Part shown: positions 54,215-64,000 of the stretch, piece after piece
Layout of the letters: each line of letters opens with the position of its first letter
How positions within the stretch are numbered: the stretch's first letter is position 1
Assembly (NCBI GenBank): GCA_021299695.1
Contig: JAJTEK010000014.1
Coordinates: 1-64,000, forward strand
Direction of reading: 5' to 3'
DNA: 64,000 bases
Source of the DNA: Pirellula sp.
Lineage (GTDB): Bacteria > Planctomycetota > Planctomycetia > Pirellulales > Pirellulaceae
Made by a program: the position numbers and the translations under genes
The notes under the pieces: generated by a model
What the model was told of the DNA's origin: nothing
Seen by the model: only the letters and a program-made list of their open reading frames with translations
The model's database searches: none

Positions 54215-54288
54215 GCCCTAGTAGCTCAGTTGGATAGAGCGCGGCTTTCCTAAAGCTGAGGTCGCAGGTTCGAATCCTGCCTGGGGTA
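54215..54288 (+). tRNA. tRNA-Arg (anticodon CCT)
   Basis: GCCCTAG acceptor, GCTCAGTTGGATAGAGC D-arm, CGGCT-TTCCTAA-AGCTG anticodon arm (CCT), GCAGG-TTCGAAT-CCTGC T-arm, CTGGGGT acceptor 3' strand; no encoded CCA. Confidence 0.93.
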
Positions 54289-54450
54289 CTCGGTCGAGCC
54301 GATACTGGCCGACAAGCTCGGTGTTGACTGCTTTGAGTGCAGCATATTGCGCAGAACGGATGCGATTCTACCAACCGTACGAACCATGTCCTCGACGCCA
54401 AGCATCGGGGTGGATCCCATAAGCTCCAAGATATCTAGTGAAATCTTTTT

Positions 54451-57800: not shown

Positions 57801-57998
57801 CAGGCCCGGGTTGAGCTTGGTCAGTGCAATTCGCAGACGCTCCACGAGCACCACTTCGCTTTTGGTCTCGCGACCGAGCGTGCCGGTTGTGCCGAAGGTT
57901 TCTTCCATTGCCGAAGTCGTTTGCCAGCCGAGCGATGCAAAGATCCCGATGGCGGGTTGTTCGACGAGTTGGTCTTCGGAGTAGAGGGTGGGTTTCAT
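54810..57998 (-). CDS. hsdR: Type I restriction endonuclease subunit R
   Basis: VVIELKKPLVPARAAFDENLTHYKQQIPQLFWFNAMLIASNG; GGVFWQTQGSGKSFSMVFFAQKVLR; VLTDEAHRSQYDTLALNMRASLPKAMFLAFTGTPL. Confidence 0.95.
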   Translation of the reverse strand: MKPTLYSEDQLVEQPAIGIFASLGWQTTSAMEETFGTTGTLGRETKSEVVLVERLRIALTKLNPGLPPEAIQTAIDELARDRSAMSLEAANREVYKLLKEGIPVSIPERESLTPGPSPRGRGGQSTERLRVVDWEHPEQNDFLLVSQLSVVGNLYTCRPDLVGFVNGLPWVVIELKKPLVPARAAFDENLTHYKQQIPQLFWFNAMLIASNGTDSRVGSLTADWERFFEWKRIEREDEPRRVSLEVMLRGTCDRSRLLDLVENFTLFSEHKAGLVKILGQNHQFLGVNNAIASMLEARKLGHGRGGVFWQTQGSGKSFSMVFFAQKVLRKLAGNWTFVVVTDRVELDVQIAKTFKSVGAVSESEGEKCHAASGAKLRELLRGNHRYVFTLVHKFQTPEMLTDRSDVIVLTDEAHRSQYDTLALNMRASLPKAMFLAFTGTPLIAGEERTKEVFGDYVSIYDFQQSVEDGATVPLYYENRTPELQLVNPDLNENIYELIENAELDAEQEEKLAKVLGKQYHLITRDDRLETVAQDIVQHFLGRGFVGKAMVVSIDKATALRMYEKVRKQWAIELAKVRRELGRYDLSKSDEASLRQRLGILTTTDMAVIVSPGQNEIEQMKKLGIDIEPHRKRMNESQPGLDEKFKASDDPLRLVFVCAMWLTGFDAPSCSTVYLDKPMRNHTLMQTIARANRVFPGKHSGVIVDYANVFASLEKALAIYGAGKGGTNPVKDKGLLVAALREAIVAATGFCTAHGIDLVAMEALPLGGMERLSAIENAIDALISPDDRRREFFGHDKYVGTLYRAVKPDPAAVEFSVRVAGIATLAGAIRAKLCPNPPDIATILQQIGGLLDESITGLTIREEGPPAINLAKINFEALAAQFKESKHKNTDLEVLKAAIAARLGKMLRLNRTRTDFSEKFEELIESYNSGSRNIEQLFEELMKLSRSLDAEQERHVRENLSIEEQVIFDILTRPSPELSTAEREQVKKVARELLARLKQLLVLNWRQKSAARSTLKLAIEDTLDYGLPDAYSPEIYNQKCSALFEHVYESYPEQNTGVYAEVG
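57630..57666. repeat. Dispersed GC-rich palindromic repeat inside hsdR (encodes ...SLTPGPSPRGRG...)
   Basis: CCCCCCTCGCCCTCTGGGAGAGGGGCCGGGGGTGAGGG; translated insert SLTPGPSPRGRG between otherwise HsdR-like segments. Confidence 0.75.
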
Positions 57999-58081
57999 CG
58001 GGGTGCGAGTACTACATTTACGCTGCCGTCAAGAAGTTCGATGATCGAATCTCGTAAGGCTTTCGTAGTGCTAATCGGGTA

Positions 58082-59038
58082 CTACCTTTTGGTTATTTTC
58101 GGCCCAACGTAAACGACAAACACCGGTTTGCCGAGGACAATAGGCCAGGAGAAATGAATCCGATATTGAGGCGTCTTGATCTTTCCGTGCCGCGAGCAGA
58201 TTAGGTACTCCCCAGGTATTGTCGGATGAGGGAATGTCAGTGCACTTGCAAACTCCGCAAGCTCACTTGGAGACGAATCAGAGAACCATGCTTTGTCACC
58301 AGTGAAATACTGGGTATACAAATCATTGCCTTCAGGAGTTCGATTACCTCTTTCATCAATGCAACCGCAAAGTCTATCAAGAACACTCAGCCTAATAACA
58401 ATGCTATCGGCCACACCTGAATGGAATGGTTGCCCGTCCATTGGGGAAAATGCATCATCGACGATCGAGAGCTTATCAAATCGCAGGCGAGCATACGACA
58501 TCAATGTTTGCCAAGATCTATACGGAGTTGAGATCGCTTCAAGAGTGGGCGTAACGGATTGAGTCGACCAATGGTTCGTGATTTGGACGGTGTGTGACGT
58601 TTCGCATTCTTTCAGCCATGTGACACTGATAATCTTTTTAAGCCAGTTCGATGGATCGAAACTGACGACTTCTCGATGGATGCCGTGGGCTAAACAGTAC
58701 GCGGCCTCTCCGATCGCTGTGTCAGCGACATCTCCACCACCATCAGATTCCAGCCATTCATTAGGTTGGTGTTGTCGATCCTCGGTCCAAAAAGGACCTT
58801 GTCGAGTTAACCAACTCATCCAGGCTCTTTTCTTCTCTAAGGATAATGACTGCACCGCCTGTTGCATCGGTGCGGTAGAGGTCACCTGAGAATTAGCCAA
58901 TGCAGGGTTACACAGCAGTTCGCTGCCATACTTTACGATCTGTTGTCGGATGGCCATGATTCGATCGACGGCATGACAGAAGTCCGAGGTTGATTGGAAT
59001 TGACCATGCAAAGATAGCTCGTTCAGCAGGAAAAACAC
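58082..59038 (-). CDS. Uncharacterised protein, third gene of the DUF262/ATPase trio
   Basis: ORF abuts the ATPase stop (59039); no motif recognised; C-terminus GEYLICSRHGKIKTPQYRIHFSWPIVLGKPVFVVYVGPKITKR. Confidence 0.75.
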   Translation of the reverse strand: MFFLLNELSLHGQFQSTSDFCHAVDRIMAIRQQIVKYGSELLCNPALANSQVTSTAPMQQAVQSLSLEKKRAWMSWLTRQGPFWTEDRQHQPNEWLESDGGGDVADTAIGEAAYCLAHGIHREVVSFDPSNWLKKIISVTWLKECETSHTVQITNHWSTQSVTPTLEAISTPYRSWQTLMSYARLRFDKLSIVDDAFSPMDGQPFHSGVADSIVIRLSVLDRLCGCIDERGNRTPEGNDLYTQYFTGDKAWFSDSSPSELAEFASALTFPHPTIPGEYLICSRHGKIKTPQYRIHFSWPIVLGKPVFVVYVGPKITKR

Positions 59039-60208
59039 TCAATCCTCCCAACCAGCGAAGTAGTTCATGTCTTTGTCGAACTGGTCGAAAAAACCCGTTG
59101 GCCACTGGTCAATCGTACCGTCGGAGGCTACCTGGGGACTGCGATATGGAACCTCTCCATCGCGTTGCGCCGAGAAGAAGTGCAAAGCAACGTCCTTCGA
59201 GTCGATTTTACCGCTTTTGACGGCTCGGCGTATGCCGTTCAAAACGTGATCACTATGCGATTCGACGATCACTTGAATCCCCGCCTGTGCAACTTCGGCA
59301 AGGAACTCTCCGATGAGAGCTTGCCCGGAGGGGTGCAGGTGAACTTCTGGATTTTCGATCAACAGCAAATCACCTTTTTCCGCTGCAAGTGCCGCAACAA
59401 TGACGGGCAGAACTTGCGTAAGTCCGAACCCGACGTTGATCGGACGGTGAAAGTCGGTGTCGTTGCTAGTTCGTATGCCTAGCAAAACGCTATTGGTTTG
59501 GGCGACCTTTTCCAATTGAAGCATGATCCCCGGAAAGAAGTTTTGCATGCGTGCTTCAAGTTGTTTGAACAAGGTTGGTGGTGCCGATTCAATGAGAAGC
59601 GTATCGATAACCGCATGGTCTGACTTTTGATAAAGAAGTCCGACTGCGTTTTCACCACGAGAGCCGACAACTTGCAGCGCGTTTGGATCCTTTAGTTGAT
59701 AGCTGTCACGTGGGCCGACTCGCTCTGCAGTAAGATAGGTCAATGTGCGTATGCTCCGGGGCAGTCCACCCGTCCGAGGTATTTCTTGGTCGGACTCAGG
59801 GCACAGGTAGTGCAATCGATTGGGGTAGTCCAAAGTTACTGACCCAGGGGGCCAATTGGCCTGAACGGTGACGTTCGCCACACGCAATGACATGGCTTCT
59901 TTGTCTTCTTCGCATGTGAATTGCCAATGCAATTCAATGTTGTCGATCAACACGCCGATCTTTAATTCATAACGACCATGAACTTTGTCGATCACATCGC
60001 CGGCGGAGCCGAGTTGAATCAATCCACCATTGAGTTGCAGGCGATTGGACCACTCATGCTCCGACATGGTTTGATGAAGCAGTACGAGCGCCTGCATGAT
60101 GGTCGATTTACCCGATGCATTAGTTCCTGAGAGTAATGTTAAACTTGCTAACGGGAGCGACAATTTGCGGAAACATTTGAAGTACTCAAGATCAAGTCTG
60201 GTAATCAC
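59039..60208 (-). CDS. AAA family ATPase (AAA_21/DUF3696-like)
   Basis: MITRLDLEYFKCFRKLSLPLASLTLLSGTNASGKSTIMQALVLLHQ (Walker A); LLLIENPEVHLHPSGQALIGEFLAEVAQAGIQVIVESHSDHVLNGIRRAVKSG (Walker B/His switch). Confidence 0.93.
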   Translation of the reverse strand: MITRLDLEYFKCFRKLSLPLASLTLLSGTNASGKSTIMQALVLLHQTMSEHEWSNRLQLNGGLIQLGSAGDVIDKVHGRYELKIGVLIDNIELHWQFTCEEDKEAMSLRVANVTVQANWPPGSVTLDYPNRLHYLCPESDQEIPRTGGLPRSIRTLTYLTAERVGPRDSYQLKDPNALQVVGSRGENAVGLLYQKSDHAVIDTLLIESAPPTLFKQLEARMQNFFPGIMLQLEKVAQTNSVLLGIRTSNDTDFHRPINVGFGLTQVLPVIVAALAAEKGDLLLIENPEVHLHPSGQALIGEFLAEVAQAGIQVIVESHSDHVLNGIRRAVKSGKIDSKDVALHFFSAQRDGEVPYRSPQVASDGTIDQWPTGFFDQFDKDMNYFAGWED

Positions 60209-61322
60209 CTAACACCTCTTGGAACATTTCGTTGGCGATAGCGAAGCGTTTCTTGACTTTCCAGGTGCTATTGGGACCGTTAGTGATCACATCGTTAAAC
60301 TCTGGGTTTAACATCAACGAATAGAAACGGCTTTTTAGTTCTTTTGATTTCGCTTTGACAAGATCCGTCGAATAGTGGGCCAATCCAGTAGACATCACAT
60401 CCCATAGTGAGGCATTGACAACACTTCGGTGACTTTGACCAGGAACATGTTTGCGAAAAGCATGCCGCCCGAAAAGCTCTAGATTATTAGTGAGGCTTAA
60501 TCGCAGCGCTTTGGATGCATCCGCAAGCTGCGTCTCAGATAGCTGGTTGAAATTTTCCAACGCACGGGCAAGGAACTCATCCATGTCACTCTTATTGTAA
60601 GCTTCGACGCCCAGTGAGTAGAAACCGCAAAAACGATTTACGAATTCACGATCCCGCATTTTCTTGGAATCGAGACTTCCACCCGTTGCATTCTTGAAAA
60701 GACGGGTTCCCACTTCTGCCTTCAGCCAACGGGTAGCGGCGCCCATGTAAAGGCAGTTTCGCATCTGTTGCCTAGTGAGTTTAACCCCACTATTGACTCG
60801 ATCAAAGATATCGAGTTTGGCCCGTTCAGGAACTTTCGAGTCGATGATGTAAAGTTCAAGATTGCAATCCTCGACGCGATTCTGGAACTTTGGTGACAGC
60901 TCGCTAAAGTGCTTACCATGCAAGCTTTCTTGCGTCGGCAGATAAAGTCTAAAGTCATTCCGAAGAAAAGATTGGAATGTGGATAGACGCTGCAGACCAT
61001 CGACGACGATCGTGCGTCCTTTTTTGTCTTCTGCCAAGTAGAAAACCGGGAGTGGGATACGCATCAGCACCGATTCGATCAAGCGGCTTTGTTTTTCCAT
61101 ATCCCAAACAAAATCGCGTTGGAAATCGGGATTCAGGATAAAACCACCTGCAGCAATTCGGCGAACGACATCGAAGACGGTTCTTGTTTCTTTGCGGATT
61201 AAAAAAGTATCGATGGGATAGTCGCCCAAACCGCTATCTTCGGCTCCATCGAGGCCTTCGATTTTCTCCTCTTGGAATGCGAGTTCTACGTCGCTGATCG
61301 TCTCGTGGTTGTCGGTGGACAT
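60192..61322 (-). CDS. DUF262 domain-containing protein (GmrS/ParB-like nuclease fold family)
   Basis: ILNPDFQRDFVWDMEKQSRLIESVLMRIPLPVFYLAEDKKGRTIVVDGLQRLSTFQSFLRNDFRL...IFDRVNSGVKLTRQQMRNCLY. Confidence 0.93.
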   Translation of the reverse strand: MSTDNHETISDVELAFQEEKIEGLDGAEDSGLGDYPIDTFLIRKETRTVFDVVRRIAAGGFILNPDFQRDFVWDMEKQSRLIESVLMRIPLPVFYLAEDKKGRTIVVDGLQRLSTFQSFLRNDFRLYLPTQESLHGKHFSELSPKFQNRVEDCNLELYIIDSKVPERAKLDIFDRVNSGVKLTRQQMRNCLYMGAATRWLKAEVGTRLFKNATGGSLDSKKMRDREFVNRFCGFYSLGVEAYNKSDMDEFLARALENFNQLSETQLADASKALRLSLTNNLELFGRHAFRKHVPGQSHRSVVNASLWDVMSTGLAHYSTDLVKAKSKELKSRFYSLMLNPEFNDVITNGPNSTWKVKKRFAIANEMFQEVLGDYQT

Positions 61323-61464
61323 GATCTGAGTTTCAGAAGATTCGTCGGGCCGGACTCGGAGGTTCTAAATTCATCTCCGCTCATTCTACGACAAAACAAA
61401 CAAAATGGGTAAAAAATGAGCTTGTCGGATGATTTCGGGACAACTTTCGCATGGCAAAATCGGA

Positions 61465-61920
61465 CTAGGCAGCGGGTAGAGACTGTTCAAGCTCTCGTTC
61501 GCTGTGTTCTTCGGCCAGTTCTAGGAAATCGAAGGTGTATTCGTCTTGGTGGATCAGTACGTTTTTTGACCAGCCGAACTTGCGAGTCATGGGCAGGTAG
61601 AACTCCGGCTTGAGAGGGTCGGAGCGACGCTCCATGATGGCAATATTTTGGCTCCAGCCGATTTCTCGCACCAGCGGTGCGAGTTTTTCCAAGCCCCGGT
61701 AGAGCTCGAAAAAGGCCCGCATCCGCCAGAGATTTGAGGCCGAAAAACCGCTTACGCCGGGGAATTCCTTCTGCAGGTCTGTCGCCAGTTTCTGAACGAT
61801 GGCTTTCGCGTCTTCCAATTGTGCCGCAGGTTGTGGCACAACACCCGCCATAGTTCGGTAGAGTGCTATGGGTATCCTAGTCGGCTCTGTCATGCGGGCA
61901 CCACCGTGCCGGGGTCGCAA
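61465..61920 (-). pseudogene. Truncated DUF1016 (YhcG-like PDDEXK) gene
   Basis: DUF1016_N-like KLATDLQKEFPGVSGFSASNLWRMRAFFELY...FYLPMTRKFGWSKNVLIHQ jumps directly to DEYTFDFLELAEEHSERELEQSLPAA*; linker and PDDEXK domain missing. Confidence 0.75.
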
Positions 61921-62046: not shown

Positions 62047-62463
62047 CTAGAAGACTTCCCGGCCTTCGGCCAAATTGATCAGTCCAGGAAAGCCTAGAGT
62101 AGCAGGTCGTCTACCGCTGCCAGATTGTAATTCTCGGACAATGCCTGCGTCCCTTATCTGCCGGAGCAGGCCCAACGCGGTTTTTTTGTGAATCCCGTAT
62201 TCCAGATTAAGTTTCTCCGCCAGATCGGAAGAACGAAAGACGGGTTTGCTGAAGATCGCATCTAGAATGATAACGGTATACTGCGAGTGAGTAGCCTCGT
62301 GAATCACCTGTTTCATTTCTTCGTAGATGGCTTGAATTGCGGACAATCGGACGCTGTTCTGCCCAGCGTTGGAACTGATCTGCGTTACAGGAACGCCTGC
62401 TAAGCAGCTATTTGAAAACAATCCTTCCTTACGATTGATACCATCGAATTCATGGAAGATCAC
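62047..62463 (-). pseudogene. C-terminal (winged-helix) remnant of a Fic-family protein
   Basis: AIQAIYEEMKQVIHEATHSQYTVIILDAIFSKPVFRSSDLAEKLN..KKTALGLLRQIRDAGIVRELQSGSGRRPATLGFPGLINLAEGREVF resembles Fic C-termini; no HPFxxGNGR catalytic motif present. Confidence 0.65.
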
Positions 62464-64000
62464 GATTCAACTTCCTTCACCAAATCAAGGTAATAATCCG
62501 AGTTCCAATTTTGAATCGCGTTTAGGCAAGATCGTACCACCAACTTGCATTCGCTCATGTCGGGAATCGTGAGTGATCGTGTAATTGTAGTGTTATGCGA
62601 ATAATTATTTATGAATTTCCAGACCTTCTCGCGGACGACTTCGTCTGGAAAGATTCGATCCATTTTACCCTTGAGTCCAATGGATAAAGGAATCATTATC
62701 CCCCCAAAGGCTTCCATGAATCGGCGAACAACATTCGGAAGGCTCAGCAAACTCGTATAATCACCTGTCGCCGAATTATCAAACTGATACAGTGTTGAGA
62801 AAAGGAAGTGATATTCCGATTTGAACTTTAAAAGCTCCTTTGGAATTGGCTCAAGGACTGCTTCGCCGTCATCCATACGCGTGACAAGAACAACACCCCA
62901 TTTCTTCCATAACGCATAATCTTTTTTGTTTTTTTCGTCATCCACCGCCCACTCACGAATCAAGTTGAAGAACTCAAAGCTATGCGTTGAAAGGAAGAGC
63001 TGGCAACACCCGGAAAGTTGTGTCTTGATGAGCGCATAGGTGTTGAAAAGGTGGTTCGCGTCGAGGCTTGAGATAGGGTCATCAATGAAAATTCGAGTCT
63101 CAGCTAGCGGTTGTTGTCCATCCTGGACTCTTGTGATGAAGTAGGCGAAAGCAATTGCTGTTCGTTCGCCCTCGCTCAGGTTCTTGGCTACATTTGTTCC
63201 ACGAACGATCTGAAACCGCTTTTCACTCGAGACTGTAACCCTCAAATCGTTCTTTCCAAAGTAGGCTGAAAGCAGTTCGTTGATCCGCTCAGATCCCTTC
63301 GCGGCATCTGATAAATCCCTCTCTAATTTTTCGATTTCTGCCTCTAATTCGCATAATTTTTTTGATTGATTGTCGATGTTTAGTTCCAGCGTTTCAACTT
63401 CCTTTTTTGTCTCGTTGTATCTTTCCTCTATGACAAAGTATGCTGCAAAATGCTTTTCAAGTGCGAGGAGCGCCTCGTTGCGATTCTTTTCGAAGGCGAT
63501 GGTTCTTTGGTTGTGTGAGTCAATGACATTATTGATCGCCTCGATTTTAGCGGCGATTTGGTCGTCAGGATCATCAAACATCGGGAGTTCAATAACATCA
63601 AATGCCTTTGTCTGCTTTGCCCGCACAAGTCGTTCTAAGGCTTGTAAAGCGCATAACCTTTCGCTCAAAGTATTGTTCAGAGAACTCTCTTCAACCACGA
63701 ATCGTTCAACAAGTTCTGGGTAGAAGTCGTTCCTGTGATCTAGAGGGATTTTCTCCTTCATCGCCTCTTCTATTGTACGACCAAGATTTACGAGATCTCC
63801 CATCAGACTCTTGTATTCGGCAGAAAAGTGCCCTTCGAGTTGATCTAATAAATCCCTGGGTAACAAATGCCCGCAGAATTGGCAGACGGCTTCATCGTCA
63901 TGTATTTGTAGGCCATCGTTTACCCAGCGTTCAATTGTCGGGTTCTCTTTGAGTCGTTGGATTGGTTCGCTTGCGGTGACTGTTCTAGCAAGTAATGAGG
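62460..64000 (-). CDS. AAA_13/RloC-PrrC-like ATPase, 5' end beyond the window
   Basis: Frame stays open to base 64000 (...SLLARTVTASEPIQRLKENPTIERWVNDGLQIHDDEAVCQFCGHLLPRDLLDQLEGHFSAEY...); LSEGERTAIAFAYFITRV (signature), IFIDDPISSLDANHLF (Walker B), coiled coil. Confidence 0.85.
   Translation of the reverse strand, partial: SLLARTVTASEPIQRLKENPTIERWVNDGLQIHDDEAVCQFCGHLLPRDLLDQLEGHFSAEYKSLMGDLVNLGRTIEEAMKEKIPLDHRNDFYPELVERFVVEESSLNNTLSERLCALQALERLVRAKQTKAFDVIELPMFDDPDDQIAAKIEAINNVIDSHNQRTIAFEKNRNEALLALEKHFAAYFVIEERYNETKKEVETLELNIDNQSKKLCELEAEIEKLERDLSDAAKGSERINELLSAYFGKNDLRVTVSSEKRFQIVRGTNVAKNLSEGERTAIAFAYFITRVQDGQQPLAETRIFIDDPISSLDANHLFNTYALIKTQLSGCCQLFLSTHSFEFFNLIREWAVDDEKNKKDYALWKKWGVVLVTRMDDGEAVLEPIPKELLKFKSEYHFLFSTLYQFDNSATGDYTSLLSLPNVVRRFMEAFGGIMIPLSIGLKGKMDRIFPDEVVREKVWKFINNYSHNTTITRSLTIPDMSECKLVVRSCLNAIQNWNSDYYLDLVKEVES

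Follow-up and report, generated by a model that had tools for sequence, protein, structure and literature searches.

What is the block of three closely packed genes that precedes hsdR in this Pirellula sp. genome: a defence system in its own right, an accessory of the restriction-modification (R-M) operon around it, or a combination without a name? We addressed this question in the window, i.e., the whole stretch of 64,000 nucleotides analysed here, using profile and structure searches, genomes of the same genus and homologous loci from other bacteria, plasmids and viral contigs. The features considered below, in window coordinates, are as follows.

60192..61322, minus strand: nsnA, DUF262 (GmrSD_N) protein, 376 aa; PADLOC NsnA and PF03235
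59039..60208, minus strand: nsnB, ABC/OLD-type ATPase with C-terminal DUF3696, 389 aa; PADLOC NsnB and AAA_15, AAA_21, DUF3696
58082..59038, minus strand: nsnC, predicted effector, 318 aa; PADLOC NsnC PDLC03896 and AlphaFold2 (AF2) model
61323..61487, minus strand: inserted segment, upstream end; yhcG homology to congener G304 breaks at 61487 (BLAST)
57985..58081, minus strand: inserted segment, downstream end; congener homology restarts at 57984, near codon 5 of hsdR (BLAST)
61465..61920, minus strand: truncated yhcG-like (DUF1016_N) gene; PF17761, 85.8 bits
54810..57998, minus strand: hsdR of the type I R-M operon; TIGR00348, 471 bits

Identification of the trio as Menshen

The three proteins were compared with the profiles of PADLOC-DB. 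Gene 1 matched NsnA with 379.7 bits (E = 4.5e-114) over residues 36-372 of 376, the runner-up, PD-T4-2_A, scoring 128 bits; gene 2 matched NsnB with 357.8 bits (E = 2.3e-107) over residues 1-385, followed by HEC-03B with 139 bits; and gene 3 matched the NsnC profile PDLC03896 with 368.8 bits, residues 1-318 of 318 corresponding to profile positions 1-319 of 319. These scores far exceed those of every other system in the database. NsnA, NsnB and NsnC are the components of Menshen, a three-gene bacterial anti-phage system attributed to Millman et al. 2022. Because all three proteins match these profiles near full length, and because the A-B-C gene order is conserved, the trio is, by profile comparison, a copy of Menshen with an NsnC of the PDLC03896 subtype, that is, a known system and not a new one. 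The sequence-only reading of this region had not recognised the trio as a named system; the match to Menshen is the very outcome that it had itself singled out as counting against its proposal. Its description of three minus-strand genes, with an overlap followed by zero spacing, agrees with the ORFs, and its assignment of gene 1 to DUF262 with a DGLQR motif and of gene 2 to DUF3696-type ATPases was borne out by the Pfam search.

The family assignments are supported by intact motifs. NsnA matches PF03235 (DUF262/GmrSD_N) with 85.7 bits and contains QR (68-69), DGLQR (108-112) and FxRxN (173-177), in which Q68, R69, D108, G109, Q111, R112, F173, R175 and N177 are invariant in 17 homologues. The set QR, DGxQR, FxxxN is that of characterised DUF262 enzymes (PMC12137116). 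NsnB, which contains AAA_15, AAA_21 and C-terminal DUF3696 matches, has Walker A GTNASGKS (28-35), GFG (260-262), Walker B ENPE (285-288) and the H-loop ESHSDH (316-321); across 17 homologues, the residues of these motifs are invariant or almost invariant, and profile searches align NsnB to the AriA ATPase. Neither the DUF1524 His-Me nuclease domain nor TOPRIM was detected in any of the three proteins at E<=0.1 (Pfam).

Compared with Menshen as described, the window trio has the same three protein families in the same order, tightly coupled, and it is essentially an ordinary copy of the system. It differs in that its NsnC represents only one of many NsnC profiles, in having a genomic site of its own, within a type I R-M operon, and with respect to TOPRIM: a review in which Menshen consists of a DUF262 gene and an OLD-type partner attributes an OLD-family TOPRIM domain to one component (PMC10952713). 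However, the PADLOC NsnB profile has only 345 positions, which leaves little room for TOPRIM, so that this domain is unlikely to be a defining feature of the Menshen family.

Gene coupling and recurrence of the gene order

Genes 1 and 2 overlap by 17 nt (60192-60208), and genes 2 and 3 have zero spacing, the stop of gene 2 being at 59039 and the start of gene 3 at 59038. GTG is the start codon of both downstream genes, which are preceded, within the upstream gene, by AGAGG and GGGAGG, respectively. In 18 homologous trios, the A/B and B/C junctions overlap or are separated by at most 12 nt, with a single exception of 166 nt; because the junctions are this tight across the homologues, the coupling, as judged from gene spacing, exceeds chance.

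Tightly spaced A-B-C trios, many of which are carried by plasmids or by IMG/VR viral contigs, were found at more than 20 loci in at least seven phyla:

Planctomycetota: L018
Actinobacteria: L010
Desulfobacterota: L011, L014
Pseudomonadota: L012, L013, L016, L017 and others
Cyanobacteriota: L015
Campylobacterota: L023
Bacteroidota: L028

Searches with NsnC yielded five loci in species genomes, one in a further planctomycete and three on plasmids, and the order was the same as in the window in 9/9 cases. With NsnC as the query, no relatives were found in phage genomes or in initial viral scans; with NsnA, complete trios were recovered from IMG/VR contigs. These contigs, together with plasmids encoding a more divergent NsnA, contributed many further trios. 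The third gene is the most variable of the three, and 17 of the 18 aligned third proteins match the same two NsnC profiles. In one Desulfobulbaceae metagenome-assembled genome, NsnC (L011:1746-2699) lies in two reading frames, with protein similarity continuous across the split.

Insertion into a type I restriction-modification operon

A type I R-M operon surrounds the trio, with hsdS on one side of it and hsdR on the other, all in the same orientation. On contig C76, which contains the window, the operon runs on past the window end with, in this order, AAA_13, hsdS, Bro-N and hsdM genes (hsdM and hsdS in L005). Congener G304 lacks the trio at the corresponding site, and its yhcG-like (DUF1016) gene is intact and directly overlaps hsdR. 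BLAST homology between the window and G304 stops at 61487, the last 56 bases ahead of the break being 98% identical, and restarts at 57984, so that about 3.5 kb holding only the trio in the window stand in place of the C-terminal part of yhcG, which is about 0.44 kb long in G304. The yhcG-like gene of the window is thus a fragment whose C-terminal PDDEXK part was lost at the insertion. Another congener without the trio, G319, has a full-length DUF1016-family gene of 346 aa and an hsdR that is 85% identical. In the congeners, DUF1016-family genes are retained directly upstream of hsdR (L208:5096-6136 and L190:2490-3040).

The other listed genomes of the genus yielded no NsnB. The GC content at third codon positions is 0.49-0.54 in the trio versus 0.63-0.69 in hsdM, hsdS, hsdR and the flanking genes. 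Given the trio-free site in G304, the lack of NsnB in the listed genomes of the genus and the difference in base composition, the comparison indicates that the trio was gained horizontally and was inserted as a unit into the yhcG-like gene of an older R-M operon. The segment 61323..61487 may contain the native promoter of the trio. Thus, the earlier proposals that the genes are translationally coupled and that they form a self-contained defence module between hsdR and other genes of the restriction island agree with the tight junctions of the 18 homologous trios and with the G304 site, respectively; the check that it had suggested, recurrence of the gene order, revealed the A-B-C order across unrelated phyla.

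Several other features of this region were noted. The hsdR end of the operon is 0.5 kb away from a tRNA-Arg (CCT) gene (54215-54289), of which no repeat flanking the island was detected within the region read. Type I R-M operons are a frequent site of anticodon-nuclease-type guards. The AAA_13 gene of this operon (62460-64000, continuing to L005:8461-10689) encodes a PrrC-RloC-like ATPase (PADLOC PDC-S06). It is overlapped by 4 nt by a gene (62047-62463) for a 138-aa protein that resembles only the C-terminal domain of the Fic protein SoFic, the Fic catalytic part being missing. Between hsdM and hsdS lies a Bro-N/DinD-like gene (L005:12044-13372; PADLOC PDC-S13); the listed ORF begins inside hsdM in another frame, and the real gene is probably shorter.

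NsnC as a candidate effector

The sequence-only suggestion that the third protein is an effector or a partner is plausible, and we single out NsnC as the candidate effector because no nuclease domain is recognisable in NsnA or NsnB. NsnC itself matches no Pfam family above the cut-off. An AF2 model based on 19 sequences (pLDDT 91.4, pTM 0.65) predicts two domains, one alpha/beta at the N-terminus (about 1-156) and one beta-rich at the C-terminus (about 185-318), the latter common to most NsnC types, which are otherwise divergent. This model replaced one built from five sequences (pLDDT 74, mostly below 60 at the C-terminus), for which the Foldseek matches were noise and were discarded.

The conserved C-terminal residues H284, K286, R293, H295 and K314 lie on, or at the end of, consecutive predicted strands. 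In two alignments of 18 and 19 sequences, H284 and R293 are invariant, whereas the other positions vary within a class: K or R at 286, H or Y at 295, and K or H at 314. The spacing of H284/K286/R293/K314 is 2/7/21, compared to 2/7/20 for K52/K54/R61/R81 of RelE. Among these four RelE residues, R61 and R81 weigh most for cleavage (PMC2807027). Across NsnC types, the second step varies from 6 to 18 and the third from 20 to 29, the others having longer loops between these residues. Because the spacing of these basic residues is close to that in the active site of RelE, NsnC may act as an RNase; we regard the chances as about even, since fold and profile searches did not confirm a RelE-like fold. 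In particular, neither PDB nor BFVD contained a Foldseek match to the confident model at E<=0.001, and a PDB search with the C-terminal profile returned chance matches only, with no RelE-family chain. Comparison of this profile with YoeB, HigB and ParE alignments gave E=0.009 and a probability of 4% for HigB, but was underpowered: the true fold pair HigB-ParE also reached only 0.4%. At the N-terminus, the order of AF2 secondary-structure elements is compatible with a PIN-like domain, with no Foldseek match.

A ribonuclease effector would not be universal in Menshen because the NsnC types of profile PDLC03880 do not have the H284-type C-terminal motif. For example, the third proteins on a Klebsiella plasmid (L021:6559-7305) and a Campylobacter plasmid (L023:6550-7272) match this profile and have a PLD-like 'HDRY' C-terminus. 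Such PLD-like third proteins suggest effector swapping among Menshen trios.

Proposed mechanism and alternative explanations

The three family identities, the conserved gene order, the intact NTPase motifs and the insertion as a unit are established. Combining them with the predictions for NsnC, we consider it probable that the trio is a horizontally acquired Menshen copy working from a sensor, NsnA, through a coupling protein, NsnB, to an effector, NsnC. NsnA, as a ParB/Srx-type DUF262 NTPase, would sense infection via an NTP-controlled switch. The ABC/OLD-type ATPase NsnB, with its DUF3696, would serve as a scaffold that relays sensing to NsnC. NsnC would most likely be a RelE/RNase Sa-type ribonuclease acting via H284, K286, R293 and K314; once released or activated, it would stop the infected cell, an abortive outcome.

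The closest competitor is a variant of this mechanism similar to PARIS, in which the ATPase restrains the effector instead of activating it: NsnB, with NsnA, would keep a toxic NsnC inactive until a phage factor frees it. The alignment of NsnB to AriA and the tight translational coupling, which fits a stoichiometric complex, are consistent with such a guard, but the NsnA/NsnB/NsnC complex and the toxicity of NsnC alone are both purely putative here, and we consider this variant unlikely, if only by a limited measure. Somewhat less credible still is that Menshen targets DNA, with NsnA detecting modified or phage DNA like GmrSD, BrxU and SspE, and NsnB/NsnC cutting or blocking it; the C-terminal domain of NsnC would then bind nucleic acid and would not be a RelE-like RNase. 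In type IV enzymes, DUF262 is the half that senses modification and hydrolyses NTP (PMC10952713), the NsnB relatives OLD, GajA and PtuA act in DNA-related defence, and the RelE-like fold of NsnC was unconfirmed by Foldseek and profile comparison. Nevertheless, NsnA has no DUF1524 and NsnB no TOPRIM at the threshold used, and the HxK/R/(K or H) set is more in keeping with metal-independent cleavage of RNA than with a metal-dependent DNase.

The location of the trio between hsdS and hsdR, in shared orientation, could also indicate an accessory of the host type I R-M operon. Yet related trios are found on plasmids without annotated hsd genes nearby, including one of 7.6 kb, and another trio lies inside a DISARM operon; congeners retain the hsd genes without the trio, and its base composition differs from that of the hsd genes. 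Given the congener sites and the trios elsewhere, we rejected the trio as a part of the type I system, which appears extremely improbable. The comparative evidence instead identifies the trio as a mobile defence cassette with a predicted anti-phage role. The window copy adds a planctomycete example to Menshen, and the congener site shows that its three genes moved together, as a unit, into an R-M operon. If NsnC is indeed an RNase, H284, K286, R293 and K314 make the effector step of Menshen directly testable.

Relationship to other defence systems

The ptuXYZ operon comprises genes for a DUF262 protein, a PtuA-like P-loop ATPase and a third protein, PtuZ, with an N-terminal PIN-like domain lacking catalytic residues and a C-terminus claimed to be RelE/YoeB/HigB-like by superposition of 27 atom pairs (Gerdes 2025, PMC11980606); Menshen is not named in that paper. 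The layout is the same as in the window, i.e., DUF262 without DUF1524, P-loop ATPase, and a third gene with N- and C-terminal domains, and the active-site-like residues of the window NsnC and their spacing resemble those of RelE, PtuZ being likened here by its description and not by sequence. The difference is that the PIN-like and RelE-like folds were not recovered for the window NsnC by structure search. In our reading, ptuXYZ is Menshen under another name. A tentative extension, to which we give slightly less than even weight, is that both represent one ATPase-gated ribonuclease defence in which most NsnC proteins share a RelE/RNase Sa-type site (H-x-K, R, K or H), and a minority, PDLC03880, were swapped to a PLD-like domain.

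The type IV enzymes GmrSD, BrxU and SspE share DUF262 with the QR, DGxQR and FxxxN motifs, whereas the window trio has two partner genes instead of a DUF1524 His-Me nuclease. Similarly, NsnB has the ABC-type ATPase core of OLD, Gabija GajA, Septu PtuA and PARIS AriA but differs in its C-terminal DUF3696, the lack of TOPRIM and its partners. In planctomycete G238 (L018:1731-17692), a DISARM operon (DrmMI ... DrmA-DrmB-DrmC) encloses both a Menshen trio, located between DrmMI and DrmA, and an LmuB-like ATPase gene, and this region adjoins a PARIS-like AriAB gene. The genome of the window itself encodes three more DUF262 genes (L001, L002 and L003; G000 contigs C208 and C154), two of which are about 5 kb apart on one contig.
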